A DNA stretch of 64,000 nucleotides from Serendipita indica DSM 11827 (lineage: Eukaryota > Basidiomycota > Agaricomycetes > Sebacinales > Serendipitaceae). The translations under genes were made by a program, and so were the position numbers. Each line of letters begins with the position of its first letter. Position 1 is the stretch's first letter. The stretch is from NCBI GenBank assembly GCA_910890315.1, contig CAJVGD010000002.1:1550001-1614000 (forward strand), given 5' to 3'. Below the pieces are notes generated by a model that was given only the letters and a program-made list of their open reading frames with translations, searched no databases and was not told where the DNA came from. This document shows, piece by piece, positions 12,568-57,403 of the stretch.

Positions 12568-13033
12568 ATGGATTTCATCAACAAAGTCACCGGAAGCAAC
12601 AACCAGCAACAGCCGCAGCAGGGCGGAAACCAACAGCAAGGTGGATTCATGGACAGCATAAAGAATGGGATGAATAACGCGGCTGGCGGTGGGCAAGCCG
12701 GCGAGCGGAATGAGGGTATGTGGATCCTCGACATCTTACACTATGATAACTGATCTATTCCAGACTACCTTGACAAGGGTGGGTTCCTACAGTGTCAGCT
12801 CCCTCGAAATCACTAAATGACATTCTCTAGGTGTTGATATGTTCCAAGAGCGAGTCCTTGGTCAAGGACCTCAGAACAACGAATCTGCGGTACATAACCT
12901 TTCTTACGAATGCCTCGTGTGACTAAATCTTTCATTACAGATCGAACAAGCGAAGGATGAACAGATTTCCGACGCCATTAGGAGCGGCTACAAGAGTATG
13001 ACAGGCAAAGACGTCCCTATTGCGGACAAGTAA
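12568..13033 (+). CDS. Small Gln/Gly-rich protein, tandem paralogue A
   Basis: A small soluble protein of about 110 residues from four or five exons: introns follow NNAAGGGQAGERNE, DYLDKG and NNESA. The N-terminal half is MDFINKVTGSNNQQQPQQGG and similar Gln/Asn/Gly-rich sequence, probably disordered. The C-terminal half is folded-looking: VDMFQERVLGQGPQNNESA, IEQAKDEQISDAIRSGYK and TGKDVPIADK. The same architecture recurs in the next gene. No signal peptide. I have a memory of similar small basidiomycete proteins linked with stress, but I cannot name the family and give no function. ATAAAAG at 12522 is a plausible TATA element. Confidence 0.8.
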
Positions 13034-13363: not shown

Positions 13364-13887
13364 ATGGATTTCTTGAAGAACGCTGCCCAGCAGTACACGC
13401 AGAGCCAGAGCCACGACAACCAAGGCCAGAATAATAATCAGGGACAAGGTCACCAGAACCAGAATAATGATCTCGGTGGATGATGGGGGCGCTCAGCAAC
13501 GCACTTGGCTCGCAGAACAAGGATAACAACCAGCAGCACGGCCAAGGATCCCAGCCCAATGCACAGCTCGGTGGTCTCATGAACATGGTCAACGGCGCAC
13601 TCGGTGGTGGTGCGAAGGGCGAGGCCAAAGAAGGTCAGTGTCCATTTCCTTCAGATTTGCGTCGTACTAAAGTAGATGCCAGATAAACTTGACAAGGGTA
13701 TAACCTATCTTCTATGCGAGTCTCTCCATACTGATTTTTCAAAGCTGTCGACATGTTCCAGGAGCATGTATTGAAGGCTGGCTCTCAAAGTAACGAGAGT
13801 GCCATCGAGCAAGCAAAAGACAAGCAGATTGCAGACGCAATTCGTAGCGGCTACAAGCAGTTCACTGGCAAAGACATTCCCTCGTAG
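13364..13887 (+). pseudogene. Small Gln/Gly-rich protein, tandem paralogue B, frame disrupted
   Basis: Paralogue of the gene at 12568-13033. It starts MDFLKNAAQQYTQ at 13364, followed by a Gln/Asn/Gly-rich part. The end is conserved: VDMFQEHVLKAGSQSNESA, IEQAKDKQIADAIRSGYK and TGKDIPS, with stop 13885-13887 and introns in matching places. At about 13478-13486 the first frame meets TGA after NNDLGG, while the family-like continuation MMGALSNALGSQNK lies one base out of phase. LGGMMGALSNALG mirrors the downstream LGGLMNMVNGALG, so both frames belong to one ancestral protein and a single base appears to be missing. I found no intron that repairs this and no slippery heptamer. It is therefore a real lesion, an allele, or a sequencing error. 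Confidence 0.6.
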
Positions 13888-40313: not shown

Positions 40314-42264
40314 TCACATGTTCCAAGAGCTCGACGAATTGTTGGGTGCATTCGATCCGCCAAGCGAATCGGCTCGTGAGCGCGACGAAGATTGTCTATC
40401 GGGGCCAGACTGGCCACCGGATCCTACATTGGACGAGGAGCTCGAAGAGGGTCCGTTGAGATTGAGGGCCGACGATGACGGGGACTGATTCGTACGCGGC
40501 CACGAGTTGTCGTGGTAGGATGATCCAGAATGTGCATGCCCGTGCCCACCTCCGTGCGCAGAGTTGAGCGAGTGACTAGAGCCCCCGTAACCGTGATTCG
40601 AGTAGATACTGCTCGTGGTCGGTGGAGGGAGCATCGTACCGCTTCCAGGACCGAGCAGCGGCGTCTGGTTGGCGGAGTTCGCACTGGAATTACCTTGGCC
40701 GCCAGGACCGCCTCTGCCCAACGGAGGTAGACCGGGACCTGGACCAAAGTTTGGTGATGGGATCGAGAAGTTGTAGCTGCTACTCGAGGTGCCGTTTCTC
40801 ATGTTGCCGGAACCGTTTTGGCTAGGAGGACCAGTGTTTCCGCCTGCTGGGGGGACAAAACGGAGATGAATGAGAACCAAAGCTCGCTCTATATCACATC
40901 AAAAGGCCTGAGCTCACGTTTAGAGTCCAAAGAGGGCCACATGTTGCTACCTCCACCACTGCTACCCCCTGCTCCACCGCTGCTTCTGGAGCTCGATGAC
41001 TGTCCGCCGGGTCCTGGGTCATAGTAGACCTGTGTATTTGAGCTTGGGGCGCGGTGAGATGGGTAAGGAGGTCCGTGAAGGCTGTACGGGCCCGGAAGGT
41101 CATGAGCAGGCGGTGGTACGATGCCATGATGCTGTTGATGGGGGAGATGCATAGAGGTCGGATCTCCTGGCCTTCGGGGAACGTTGTGACCACCCATGGG
41201 CATACCTGGCATACCTCCCATAGGGTGTCCGGGGTGGGCAATGCTAGGGCTCATGGAGCCGGGCGGCGTTCCATCACCTTCGTCCTCGCTCAGACCTCCT
41301 TCGCCCCTATCGATTGCACTCATAGCACCAGGTGGTCCGTATCCATTGTCTTCCGTCTTGCGGCGCTTGCGAGAGTTGTTGGGCCGTCGTTTGTACACAT
41401 AGGTAGGGAAGATGCTCGTAAAGTTCTCTTTGAGCTCTTTTGCCTTTGTGAGATAGAACTGCTTCGACTCGCTGTCAATCGACTTCCACTCTGCTGAGAG
41501 CAACTTTGAAATCTCGCCAGTGCGCAAGTTTGGATTGTCAGCGGCGACCTCTGGGCGACGCTTGCGGGCGAAAATCATGAATGCGTTCATCGGACGCTTG
41601 GGTGTACCGTCGGGATTGATGACTGCGACGACGGTTAGGAACGGCCGCACAAAGTCACACGGCTAATGTTACGCACGCTGGGCAATAAGCGGATCTGCGT
41701 GCGTCTTTGTCATACGGCCGGTTGTAATGAGCTGAGGAGGTCCATTTGACGCTGGTGGGGTCGGAAACCCTGCAGTGAGCTCAGCGATACGAGCAGGCGA
41801 GGGACCGTATTTGCCTAGCAAGACGGGTGAGATGAGCTACAACGCGAAGAGGCAGATCAGAAACGCGTCTTACCTTCCGTGGCCGGATCAGCCTCCTCCC
41901 CATCATCACGCTGACGCTTTTTGGGACCCCTATTAATGTCTGCAGACGCGTTGGACGAGCCAGAGAGCAAGTCTGAAGAAGACGACATGTGTTGCAAGTA
42001 GCCGTCAAAACCGCCGCCAGTTGAGTAAGCGCCTCCATAAGATTGTGAGGGCGCGTCTGAGCTCGAGTTGGTGTTGTTGCCACCAGAGGGGGCAGGCGCA
42101 TTGTCCCGAGAGCTGGAATGCCAGCTGGGAGGAGGTGGAGGAGCCTGGAGAACGTCCTGAGCGCTGCTCGGACGACCGAGCAGATTGGCGTGCATGCTAG
42201 GCAGAGTCGTAGTCGTCGACGAAGGGGGCATGGGCAGACGGCCTCCGGAACGCACAGGATCCAT
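40314..42264 (-). CDS. HMG-box (SOX/MATA type) transcription factor
   Basis: About 560 residues over four or five exons. ATG at 42262-42264 (MDPVRSGGRLPMPPS), stop at 40314-40316. A Ser/Pro/Gly-rich N-terminus is followed by a basic KKRQRDDGEE, then the segment YGPSPARIAELTAGFPTPP. Then comes a complete sequence-specific HMG box: RPMNAFMIFARKRRPEVAAD, NPNLRTGEISKLLSAEWKSI, SKQFYLTKAKELKENF and YKRRPNNSRKRRK. The RPMNAFMxF opening and the T-x-E-I-S-K-x-L-x-x-x-W core place it with SOX/MATA rather than HMGB proteins. The C-terminus is Gly/Pro/His/Ser-rich (GGGHGHAHSGSS). Fungal relatives control mating, morphology or stress genes. No partner mating-type gene is adjacent, so I do not call it MAT. 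Confidence 0.88.
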
Positions 42265-51619: not shown

Positions 51620-52007
51620 ATGAGCCAAGGTGGTGAGTGGGTAGGCATTGACCACGGTTCACAAACCCATACTTGACAGGACCAACCAGCTGGCGTCAAG
51701 CGCTCAACAACGAACTCCAACGCCCTGGTTAGTCACTATTTGGTCTTACATAAACGTTTACTGACGAGTTATAGGCGTAAATAAAGCGGTCGAGTACAGG
51801 TGTACGGCTGACGGACCACTTCATCAGCAATTATGGACTGCAATTGCATATAGTAGGTCTTGTGCCACTGATTGGTACAACATGAGTTCACAATCCTGGA
51901 TAGTTGACGGCGAAGAGTATGGTATCGGGGAGAGGCTCCTGTCCAAAGATGGAGCAAAGGAGCAGGCCGCGAAGAGTGCCTATCTTCGGTATATGAAACC
52001 TCACTAG
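51620..52007 (+). CDS. Mini double-stranded-RNA-binding protein A (single dsRBM)
   Basis: Four exons encode only about 80 residues. The pieces are MSQG, then GPTSWRQALNNELQRPG, then VNKAVEYRCTADGPLHQQLW with TAIAYI, then DGEEYGIGERLLSKDGAKEQ and AAKSAYLRYMKPH. This is an alpha-beta-beta-beta-alpha dsRBM over almost its whole length. It has the helix-1 signature W-x-x-x-L-N-x-x-x-Q, the loop-2 GPLH (consensus GPxH, minor groove), and the helix-2 start SKDGAK-x-x-AA (consensus SKKxAKxxAA; one contact Lys is replaced by Asp). All splice sites are canonical GT/AG and phases match. No other domain is present, so it must act alone, as a dimer, or as a partner of another protein. It lies 645 bp from a second protein of the same kind. 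Confidence 0.8.
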
Positions 52008-52651: not shown

Positions 52652-53189
52652 ATGAGCTACTATTATGCAGGTCAGCCATCTTACCCAGCGCGCACCGCGC
52701 ACACGACCAGTCCTCTGACCACCGGTTCAGCCGTAGCGTATCCAACGTCTTCTTCCTCTTCACACTACCGTTCATCTTCTTCAACGCAGCAGCAGCCAAC
52801 CACGTATCGAATGGCTCTGAACGAGTACCTCCAGCAATTGCGGCGACAAAACGAGGTCAGCTGGTCAGAGAGTTGCGAGGGTCGTCGCGAGCGTCCACAT
52901 TGGACAGTTACTTGCCGAAGTGAGTACTCTTCCTTTTGTTCACTGGCTATATACTAACGGGATCCCAGTTTCCAATGTCGAGTACGGCTCCGGCCGCGCT
53001 TTGACAAAGGCTAGAGCAAAGGAGCTCGCAGCAAAGGAGGCTCTCGAGGCTCTACAACGACAAGCGACTTATGCTGCTCAATGGCAAACCGCCTGTTCCA
53101 CTTATCCAACAACTTCGAATTATCCTACCACATACTATTACCAGGCCCAACAGTATCCAACCAGCTATTATCAATACTATACAAGATAG
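52652..53189 (+). CDS. Mini double-stranded-RNA-binding protein B (single dsRBM, Tyr/Gln-rich flanks)
   Basis: Two exons, about 160 residues; the intron (about 52920-52970) splits the dsRBM. The N-terminus is Ser/Tyr/Thr/Gln-rich (MSYYYAGQPSYPARTAHTTS). The dsRBM follows: YRMALNEYLQQLRRQNEVSW, GRRERPHWTVTCRISNVEYG, then SGRALTKARAKELAAKEALE. Helix 2 keeps K-x-x-AK-x-x-AA. The loop-2 motif is RPHW rather than GPxH. The C-terminus is a Tyr/Gln/Pro tail (TTYYYQAQQYPTSYYQYY), the composition of low-complexity segments that drive condensate or prion-like assembly. Domain order (disordered, dsRBM, disordered) differs from protein A, and the two dsRBMs are clearly diverged. Confidence 0.82.
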
Positions 53190-53923
53190 ATTAGTCCACA
53201 GACGTTATGGGTTTCAAGTCTTACTATATCGTTATCTATTGGATTCTCATTACGACTCTTAATGTAGCATAGTCAATCATTCATACCAAGAGAAGAACTT
53301 CTCCACTCGACGTGCTAGTTCATTTCGCGCGAGACGTGCGACGCAGACCCTAACTTTCACAAAGCGACGCCCATACATAGTTCAGATCGCGCATGTTCTA
53401 GATAGCCGATCCAAGAATTGTTGATCCCGTATTCTTTCATTTTTTCTGTTCGGCCTATCGTGGAAGAGCCCACCAAGTGGCAAGCTCCTCTTACCACGTA
53501 TTGAAGTTGCATAACTTGTCGAGGAGCATGAATATTAAGTCCAAAACACAATCAAATAAAGGGTCAGAGGGATCAGGTTTATAAAATAGAGGATCGTTGC
53601 TGAAGAAGTATGGCTCGAAGTTCTTCCTCCAGGAGAGGATCACTCCTGGCGTTCAAGGTGGCAAACTGTGAGACGAAGATAAGGGAGAGTCCAAGAGGTG
53701 AAGTGCCACCTTTGGATCTCCTTCACCCATGTCACTACATGTATCTAATTAATACTACATTTGGTCTATCAACGAGTCACCAAATCACACAAACCACCTC
53801 ACGGCTGTGATACTGGCTCCATGAAGGTTGGTTTCTGGCTTATGGTGCTGATCATGAGGTGGTTAGCAAGCTTGCAAGTGTTCCGGGATTCGGAACCATA
53901 GCCGTTGCGCCCTAGAATTTCCA
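53190..53923. other. Intergenic
   Basis: About 730 bp. A TATA-like TTATAAAATA lies at 53579-53588, followed by a 66-codon open frame at 53610-53810 without a recognisable domain. AT content is higher than in the flanking genes. Confidence 0.4.
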
Positions 53924-54562
53924 GCTGAGTATGGGAATCTTCAAACAAAGGTGCATTTTCATGATGCTTTGGAATTTTTTGGGAATTTTCCTCACCATCC
54001 CCGGATCAGGTCTTCCTCGTTTGGGGCTCTACATGCCTCGGATGCTTGGTCTTCACCTACTTCTGCATCATGGAGACCAGGGGTCTTTCTCTCGAGCAGA
54101 TTGACATCCTCTACCAAAACACCACTCCCGTCAAGAGTGTCTCCCACCGCGATCAGCTCATCGTGAGTGAAAATTTCTCCTTCAAACCAACTATTGTCGG
54201 CTCATATATCTTTCTAGGCTCACAACGTACACGCTGCCGACGACGAGGCTATCCGCAAGGCCGCTGGAGGCGATTCTCGCTTCACCAACGAGAAGACGTC
54301 TCAGGCGAGCGCACAAGAGAAGGTCTAAACTCTTCCGATCGCTATTATGCTTGTAGTTTTGTGGATCCAGTGTCTTTACTTTCTGTCGGTACAAACACCT
54401 TGAATACAGGACTCGATTGTTCCTTTCAACTATGGTCTGTTCAATCACTATCACTTTGGTGCAGATGAGTATCCCGCTTATATCTTTGACTCGTCTCTAT
54501 TCAACAAGAGGAGATTTCTCCCAGAGGAGTCCTTTTTGTGTAGCGTGGTGAACCTTAGCAGA
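53924..54562 (+). pseudogene. Truncated inverted copy of the sugar-transporter 3' end
   Basis: About 640 bp matching the reverse complement of 55211-55790, with roughly 14 differences in about 420 compared bases. It carries the end of the penultimate exon (VFTYFCIMETRGLSLEQIDI), the last intron intact (about 54162-54220), the last exon (HNVHAADDEAIRKAAGGDSR) and more than 200 bp of 3' flank. The intron and flank show a DNA-level duplication rather than a processed copy. Near the left end, about 60 bp of unrelated sequence (about 53944-54010) replace about 10 bp of the gene. There is no promoter, no start and no membrane domain, so it cannot make a transporter. Confidence 0.88.
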
Positions 54563-55210
54563 GCCCAAAGCTTTCACCGCATCTGGGTGACACCAGCATG
54601 AGGGCCAACTAAGAAAGCGACCACTCCTTGCTTCATCTCGTATATGACGAAATGGAAATAAGGGATCGAATCATGTGGCAAGACGCCATCGTCATTTGGG
54701 GGAGAGTTTGAACGGCGATGATATTTCAAGTAATCAGAGCTTTATACGTGCCAGAGAAGAATGTTCTCGAACTTTGCACATAGACCCTCGGCTGTCAGCA
54801 GACCTCTGCTATAGAAATTCGCAGAGCTCCACGGATTCATGCACCCTTCCATTTGGGGCATGCCTCCTCGTCAATATCACCGAATAAGGTTGTGAATTTA
54901 CTGGATCTGGAGCAAGCAAGCATCCACCTAAATCAATGAACTCACGGTGCGCAGTCGCTCAGTGGCTGCGTATGATGGGTATCAGAAATGCAAACTGGAG
55001 CAAAAACATATCCGATTGCGTAAAGTTTGGGATAGGTGTGAACGAGTACCAGAACATATCAGCGCTGGTTTCCGGAGTCATTTATCATCCTGTCCTGAGT
55101 ATCCATTGTGGATTGTGAATAATCGGGCGAAACAACGATCCAACTGCCGCTCCGCTGAGCCCACTTAACAACCTTTATTTTAGTGCCTATTTACTCAATC
55201 GTCGCCGCCT
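54563..55210. other. Spacer (potential loop) between the inverted arms
   Basis: About 650 bp of sequence not shared between the arms. Open frames at 54675-54887 and 54936-55168 show no domain. If both arms are on one transcript, this would be the loop. Confidence 0.45.
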
Positions 55211-55790
55211 TCTGCCAAGGTTCACCACGCTACACAAAAATGACTCCTCTGGGAGAAATCTCCTCTTGTTGAATAGAGACGAGTCAAAGATATAAGCGGA
55301 ATACTCATCTGCACTAAAGTGATGGTGACTGAACAGACCATAGTTGAAAGGAACAATCGAGTCCTGTATTCAAGGTGTTTGTACCGACAGAAAGTAAAGA
55401 CACTGGATCCACAAAACTACAAGCAGAATAGTGATCGGAAGAGTTTAGACCTTCTCTTGTGCACTTGCCTGAGACGTCTTCTCGTTGGTGAAGCGAGAAT
55501 CGCCTCCAGCGGCCTTGCGGATAGCCTCGTCGTCGGCAGCGTGTACGTTGTGAGCCTAGAAAGATATATGAGCCTACAATAGTTGGTTTGAAGGAGAAAT
55601 TTTCACTCACGATGAGCTGATCGCGGTAGGAGACACTCTTGACGGGAGTGGTGTTTTGGTAGAGGATGTCAATCTGCTCAAGAGAAAGACCCTTGGTCTC
55701 CATAATGCAGAAGTAGGTGAAGACCAAGCATCCAAGGCACGTAGAGCCCCAAACGAAGAAAACGCGCGCTTGAAGATTCCCATACTCAGC
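55211..55790 (-). repeat. Right arm of inverted duplication (inside the active transporter gene and its 3' flank)
   Basis: Counterpart of 53924-54562 in opposite orientation. It includes the transporter's last intron, last exon, stop and 3' flank to about CCTTGGCAGA. The end points were judged by eye. Confidence 0.85.
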
Positions 55791-57403
55791 ATTAACCATA
55801 TATGGTGTAGCGTATCCGATACCAAAATTCCAGAGCCAGTTGGAGGCGGTCGACATGGACATGCCCTTGGCGCGGATAGCGAGGGGGAAGATTTCCGAAG
55901 TGACGACCCAGGCAACTGGTCCCCATGTCGAAGCGAAGAAGGCAATGTAGATGCAGACAAAGGCGACGAGGACCTTTTGGCCGGCCTGGTTCTCAACGGA
56001 GATGGTAACGCCGATGATAGCAATGAGGTACTCGCAGACGAGCATACCAGCAGCACCAATGAGGAGGAGACGACGACGTCCAATGTGGTCAACAGCCCAG
56101 AAAGCCGGAATGGTCATGACTAGGGTTCTTTGAGTGAATGTCGATAGCAAAAGGATTCATAACGTACCGACGTTGACTACGTTGGTAGCAATCGTGATCA
56201 TGAAGGGATTGGCAATGCCAGAGTTTTTGAAGAAAGTCGTGCCGTAGTAAAAGATAAAGTTGACACCGGTGAGCTGTTGCCATGCCTGGAGGAAGATACC
56301 AGTGAGAGTGCGGAGGAGAACCTTGTTCGGGCCCATCTTGAAGCAGTCGGCGTACGACGACTGGCCAATCTCCTCTTCCATGCGCAAGTTGGCCTTGATG
56401 TCTTCAATCTCGACTCGGACGTCGGGATCAGTTGGTGATGCACTGAGAAGACGACCGAGAGCGCGAGCAGCGTCCTCCTCACGGTGCTTCTTGATCAACC
56501 AACGTGGGCTCTCTGGGAGGAGGAACATGCCGATGGCGAGGATACCGGCCCAGACGAACTGAATGGCAATGGGGATACGGAACGAACCATAGTCATTGCG
56601 GTCCTTGGTAGCCTGGTTGACGCAACCGCTCAACAGAATACCAATGGTCTGAAAAGCTGTCAGCAGGTGGACCGAGCTGGTGGGAAACGCGACATACGAT
56701 GGCCCATTGGTAGCAAGAGACGACAGCACCACGAATCCACTTGGGCGAAGACTCGGCCTGGTACATGGGGACGAGGCAGGACACCATACCGACACCGAGA
56801 CCAGCAAATACACGACCAGCGACAAAGAGAGGGACGGCAGTAGCACCAGTTTGCATCGCAACACCAGCGGAGAAGATGAGGCAAGCACCGACAACACCGA
56901 ATCGACGACCGAGGAAATCACCCATGGGGGCAGCGAGGAGAGCACCGAAGAAAGTACCGAGCGAGAGGATGGAGACAATCAAGGACTCGTCAGGAGTCGA
57001 GATGGTGTAGTCTCCAGAGCCGTCGTTCTTGGGGTAACCGAAAGTTTGAAGCCAGAATTTCATTTCCTTGACACCGGAGATCACACCAGTGTCATATCCG
57101 AAAAGGATACTTGAGGGAAAAGTCAGAAATTATTTCGATGAGAAATAAGAAGGGGTATCGACGGCTCCCGCGAGGCCGGCATCTACCCGCCAGGCGAATA
57201 GCCACGATCAAATTGCCAATTGGCTAGGGACGTGGTAGAAGGAAATGCTTACCCGCCTAATCATGATCGTCAGTACGCAGTTGGAAAGGAGCAGATGGTC
57301 ACATACCAAACGCAGCAAAGCAAGACATGCCGATACCGACAATTGAGGATTTTCTGCCTCCGGCCATACCGGAGGACGCAGCGACTGCACCACCACCAGG
57401 CAT
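55445..57403 (-). CDS. MFS sugar transporter (hexose/monosaccharide, sugar porter family)
   Basis: Twelve-helix sugar:H+ symporter or facilitator of the plasma membrane, about 530 residues. ATG 57401-57403 (MPGGGAVAASSGMAGG). Sugar-porter motifs: GILFGYDTGVISG in helix 1, GDFLGRRFG (GRR loop 2-3), GRVFAGLGVGMVSCLVPMYQ (helix 4) and AESSPKWIRG. Then LPESPRWLIKKHREEDA (PESPR), QQLTGVNFIFYYGTTFF (helix 7, QQxxGxNxxxYY), and DHIGRRRLLLIGA (second GRR). TWGPVAWVVTSEIFPLAIRA is in helix 10, then ETKGLSLEQIDILY (PETKG-like, here METKG). It ends SQASAQEKV at stop 55445-55447. Introns are short. The 3' end is duplicated in inverted orientation about 0.65 kb downstream. Confidence 0.93.

Follow-up and report, generated by a model that had tools for sequence, protein, structure and literature searches.

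A Sugar-Transporter Gene and a Truncated, Inverted Copy of Its 3' End

The window analyzed here, a stretch of 64 kb, contains on its minus strand an apparently intact sugar-transporter gene (57403-55445). Our manually built model comprises six exons (57403-57307, 57256-57253, 57109-56698, 56648-56168, 56119-55611, and 55555-55445) and encodes a protein of 537 amino acids, the spliced reading frame being open with zero internal stops. The Pfam family Sugar_tr (PF00083) matches residues 28-484 at an E-value of 8e-133 and does so over profile positions 3-451 of 452, i.e., as a full-length domain. The best PDB match is the plant transporter STP10 (6h7d, E 4.2e-60), followed by STP6, also from plants, and then by human GLUT3. 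None of the pattern matches to transporter relatives was confirmed in viral contigs (0 of 2) or in bacterial and archaeal genome contigs (0 of 22); since these collections are non-fungal, the search says nothing about novelty. The gene model needs a microexon of 4 nt (57253-57256, minus strand), which keeps the stretch FGGILFGYDTG in frame.

The 3' end of this gene recurs on the plus strand, so that two arms lie in tail-to-tail orientation on either side of a spacer of 648 nt (54563-55210). The right arm (55211-55763, minus strand) is the 3' end of the apparently intact gene together with 234 nt of 3' flank. The left arm (54010-54562, plus strand) is a 5'-truncated copy of the same span: the end of the penultimate exon (54010-54162), the last intron (54163-54217), the last exon (54218-54328), and the 3' flank up to 54562. 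Both arms align without gaps over 553 nt with 19 mismatches (16 transitions and 3 transversions), which corresponds to 96.6% identity. An earlier note on this DNA had described an inverted copy of the transporter 3' end, in tail-to-tail orientation, about 650 bp away and about 97 percent identical, and these measurements bear it out. Its assignment of the two copies is corrected here, as the intact one is the right, minus-strand copy and the left one is a fragment. Outside the arms there is a further piece of 21 nt on each side, 53924-53944 (plus strand) being identical to 55770-55790 (minus strand). No other inverted repeat was detected in the 64-kb window (exact seed of 12, minimum of 40 nt, no gaps). 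The same search reported a single family of direct repeats of at least 40 nt, a pair at 12941-13017 and 13804-13880, 77 nt long and 75% identical, with starts 863 nt apart.

Even with its outer piece, the left copy stands only for transporter residues 442-537. A tblastn search of the window with the transporter recovered, on the left side, residues 450 to the stop and nothing upstream of 54007; the other matches were at chance level (E 0.82 and 5.4). The left copy is thus a partial duplicate that retains the last intron and the 234 nt of 3' flank and misses all residues before 442. Because the intron was kept, copying must have taken place at the DNA level, as had been proposed.

The two copies differ further by an extra block overlooked before: 65 nt at 53945-54009 of the left copy correspond to 6 nt in the right one, a net excess of 59 nt. 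Excision of the 59 nt at 53951-54009 (plus strand), which begin with GT and end with AG, keeps the frame and yields a gapless protein alignment of both copies, as a putative intron would. The register of this gap is ambiguous: three placements give 12 mismatches and the GT..AG placement is one of eight that give 13, so the GT..AG borders alone are no proof of an intron. The donor in this placement, GTGCAT, carries A as fifth base versus G in 7 of 7 other introns compared. Elsewhere in the window nothing matched the 65-nt stretch below E 0.1, and this lack of a second copy was counted against an introner-like origin. An intron-like block carried by one copy only, while the copies are otherwise ~97% identical, is a candidate case of an intron gained or lost recently.

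The left piece could also belong, as its 3' part, to a chimeric gene that is still expressed, in which some unrecognized upstream exons would be joined by splicing to position 53924 as acceptor. The first base of homology is part of a CAG at 53922-53924, removal of the 59-nt block together with the last intron leaves the left frame open to its stop, and a TATAAAA at 53580 is unique on both strands of the window. However, inspection of the open frames (without a Pfam scan) found no recognized coding sequence at 53190-53924, and about six TATAAAA heptamers are expected from base composition (a rough estimate), so that a single one proves nothing. The unusual fifth base of the block donor also counts against splicing of this kind, and we regard the chimeric gene as highly improbable.

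It is likewise improbable, though a little less so, that the inverted repeat is an assembly or haplotype artefact, with two alleles or paralogues misjoined tail to tail. In a heterokaryon, alleles could differ by the 3.4% seen here. Against this, the copies differ by the 59-nt block and have different flanks at their ends, a simple fold-back would give identical copies, the window is without Ns, and blastn of the spacer (E up to 1) gave no further hit in the window. Stop-free stretches in the spacer do not exceed about 80 codons.

Divergence between the Two Copies

Ten of the 19 differences between the arms are in coding sequence (seven silent and three residue-changing), one is in the 55-nt intron, and eight are in the 234 nt of 3' flank. 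The two codons flanking the extra block add two further residue changes. Over all shared coding sequence, dN and dS estimated by NG86 were 0.030 and 0.146, and they were 0.015 and 0.131 for the coding sequence after the extra block. Silent changes made up 7 of the 10 codon changes after the block, versus 33% expected for transitions (p = 0.019), and 7 of 12 overall (p = 0.063 for the same expectation). This silent divergence is above what a neutral fragment would be expected to show, and selection may therefore have acted on the left copy in the past.

The C-ending codon is found in the left copy at each of the five silent C/T differences. Codon use in the rest of the gene favors C-ending codons (GTC 25/GTT 8, CTC 27/CTT 3, ATC 22/ATT 16, and AGC 2/AGT 1). 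The pattern fits drift at silent sites of the working copy on the right, and it also fits both copies having once been genes.

The idea that two residue changes reveal decay of the left copy was dropped because solved relatives vary at both positions. Where the left copy has R instead of K, the relatives have K (STP10 and STP6) or R (GLUT3); where it has L instead of F, they have Y, F, or I (alignments read by eye). The identity of the arms supports the proposal in the earlier note that the copies are either recent or kept alike by conversion. With 8 differences in the outermost 136 nt and 11 in the other 417, the arms show some clustering, which was not relied on as a sign of conversion (p = 0.099).

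Capacity to Form Hairpin RNA

An RNA reading through both arms had been predicted to fold into a stem of about 580 bp. Folding, performed without a shuffle control, confirmed a long stem but not that length: the unspliced minus-strand RNA from 56119 to 53850 formed a stem of 544 bp, and removal of the last intron from the right arm left stems of 154 and 336 bp. Eight runs of perfect pairing are at least 21 nt long, the longest having 108 nt. With arms of 553 nt, 96.6% identity and a 544-bp stem, the locus has the foldable, long and near-perfect inverted repeat that characterizes a hairpin-RNA locus. It could thus be a working natural hairpin-RNA locus, in which read-through would join the arms, Dicer would cut the stem, and the small RNAs would lower expression of the transporter or its paralogues. 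We consider this unlikely, for reasons found both in the arms and in the spacer.

If pairing of the arms were under selection, differences that preserve pairing should prevail. On minus-strand RNA, 11 of the 16 transitions leave a G-U pair, and the other 5 do so on plus-strand RNA, a trend that is not significant (p = 0.105). The three transversions break a pair on RNA of either strand. In total, 8 of the 19 differences break a pair on minus-strand RNA and 14 on plus-strand RNA, which counts against a working hairpin-RNA locus. The excess of C in the left arm and of T in the right arm could by itself account for the pairing trend.

The spacer carries an AATAAA on the minus strand (55174-55179), a possible poly(A) signal located ~265 nt past the stop of the intact gene, outside the duplicated arm and before the left arm is reached. 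From 57500 to 53190 the minus strand has no other AATAAA; over the whole window the two strands count 11 and 16. If this element acts as a poly(A) signal, the ordinary transporter RNA would end in the spacer, and a hairpin would more likely arise from plus-strand RNA. The element thus argues, if weakly, against a minus-strand transcript through both arms. On the plus strand, AATAAA is absent after 53555 as far as 57500; RNA of this strand that enters the left arm would therefore reach the right arm without passing one, a point in favor of a hairpin. On the other side, no promoter was identified for the left copy.

In the basidiomycete Cryptococcus neoformans, 72.7% of 2,189 tail-to-tail gene pairs with annotated 3'-UTRs are reported to overlap in transcription, but the median overlap of 172 nt is shorter than the length needed here (PMC3990503). 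Hairpin constructs are reported to cause gene silencing in Fusarium graminearum (PMC4515635). Together with the plant silencing loci in print, these fungal examples of overlap and of hairpin constructs make hairpin silencing biologically reasonable, and it is, by analogy, a possible, candidate mechanism.

Comparison with Known Inverted-Repeat Loci

The rice glutelin mutation Lgc1 is reportedly a tail-to-tail gene pair with a lost terminator, whereas in the present locus the spacer retains an AATAAA on the side of the intact gene. Lgc1 has been cited among duplicated and rearranged genes whose read-through gives dsRNA (PMC3608071). Other plant loci of related shape are described as silencing or as candidates for it, namely GmIRCHS (PMC13051633) and the PAI and VIM4-VIM2 loci (PMC13213937), and such plant examples favor the hairpin explanation.

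GmIRCHS resembles the locus described here in having a pseudogene copy in a tail-to-tail inverted repeat, 680 bp from a related gene, with a repeat of 1,087 bp and a spacer of 78 bp (PMC13051633). However, in GmIRCHS the 5' portion of a DnaJ gene, with its promoter, precedes the repeat and dsRNA was detected (PMC13051633), whereas one arm here is the own 3' end of an apparently intact gene. In Arabidopsis Cvi-0, VIM4-VIM2 and PAI4-PAI1 are likewise inverted related genes whose RNA gives rise to siRNAs, and in the VIM case read-through was accompanied by silencing in cis and in trans (PMC13213937). The two loci differ in orientation, VIM being head to head and PAI tail to tail, and small RNAs were measured in both; moreover, the VIM genes were joined by a 2.8-kb intergenic deletion (PMC13213937).

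No comparable fungal locus with a natural hairpin derived from a gene was among the matches listed in a limited look at titles and abstract starts of the fungal hairpin, inverted-repeat, and small-RNA literature. If the locus is a mere record of a duplication, it is ordinary. Transcription of the locus, if it occurs, would give the silencing inverted repeats of plants a counterpart in fungi and would illustrate how small-RNA regulators can be born from partial gene duplications.

Origin of the Inverted Copy

Taken as a whole, the locus is probably a partial inverted duplication or a relic paralogue with, at most, an incidental capacity to form dsRNA. A partial inverted duplication is indicated because there is an open 537-residue model with a nearly full Sugar_tr domain on one side and only residues 442-537 on the other. 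The lack of significant bias in arm pairing and the possible poly(A) signal in the spacer support the same reading. The 3' end of the right, minus-strand transporter would have been copied tail to tail as the 5'-truncated, plus-strand fragment on the left. We infer either that a segment was copied in inverted orientation in a single step or that the fragment is the remnant of an older neighboring paralogue kept alike by gene conversion. The right gene would then encode an ordinary transporter, with the left piece as a relic without function, any read-through dsRNA being an incidental by-product and no dedicated regulatory device. Two observations may count against a relic, namely the excess of silent differences in the arms and the left frame that stays open after removal of both putative introns.

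Neighboring Genes and Other Features of the Window

Two genes for short proteins with a dsRNA-binding motif (PF00035) precede the inverted repeat on the plus strand, one at 51620-52007 (80 amino acids, E 2.2e-06) and the other at 52652-53189 (162 amino acids, E 4.9e-10), both from manually built models. Their position just upstream of a potential hairpin is striking and, with one locus at hand, may be a coincidence. They suggest a more specific scheme, in which plus-strand RNA would run through the truncated copy into antisense of the intact gene and give siRNAs that adjust the transporter, perhaps partnered by the two dsRNA-binding proteins. This scheme is very unlikely, falling between the artefact and the chimeric gene in our estimation.

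A Pfam scan of twenty of the window's long open frames, most frames being outside the scan, matched none of the Dicer, Argonaute, or RNA-dependent RNA polymerase families. In the window, Rfam at gathering scores and a tRNA scan gave 0 matches each. A scan for bacterial promoters and terminators returned seven terminator-like sites, six of which are three mirrored pairs in the arms, and was set aside as not meaningful for a fungus. A chitin synthase family match was among the Pfam-scanned frames and introns in the window are short, both of which point to a fungal host, possibly an agaricomycete. An HMG box (PF00505, E 1.7e-17) lies in an open frame at 40892-41662 on the minus strand.
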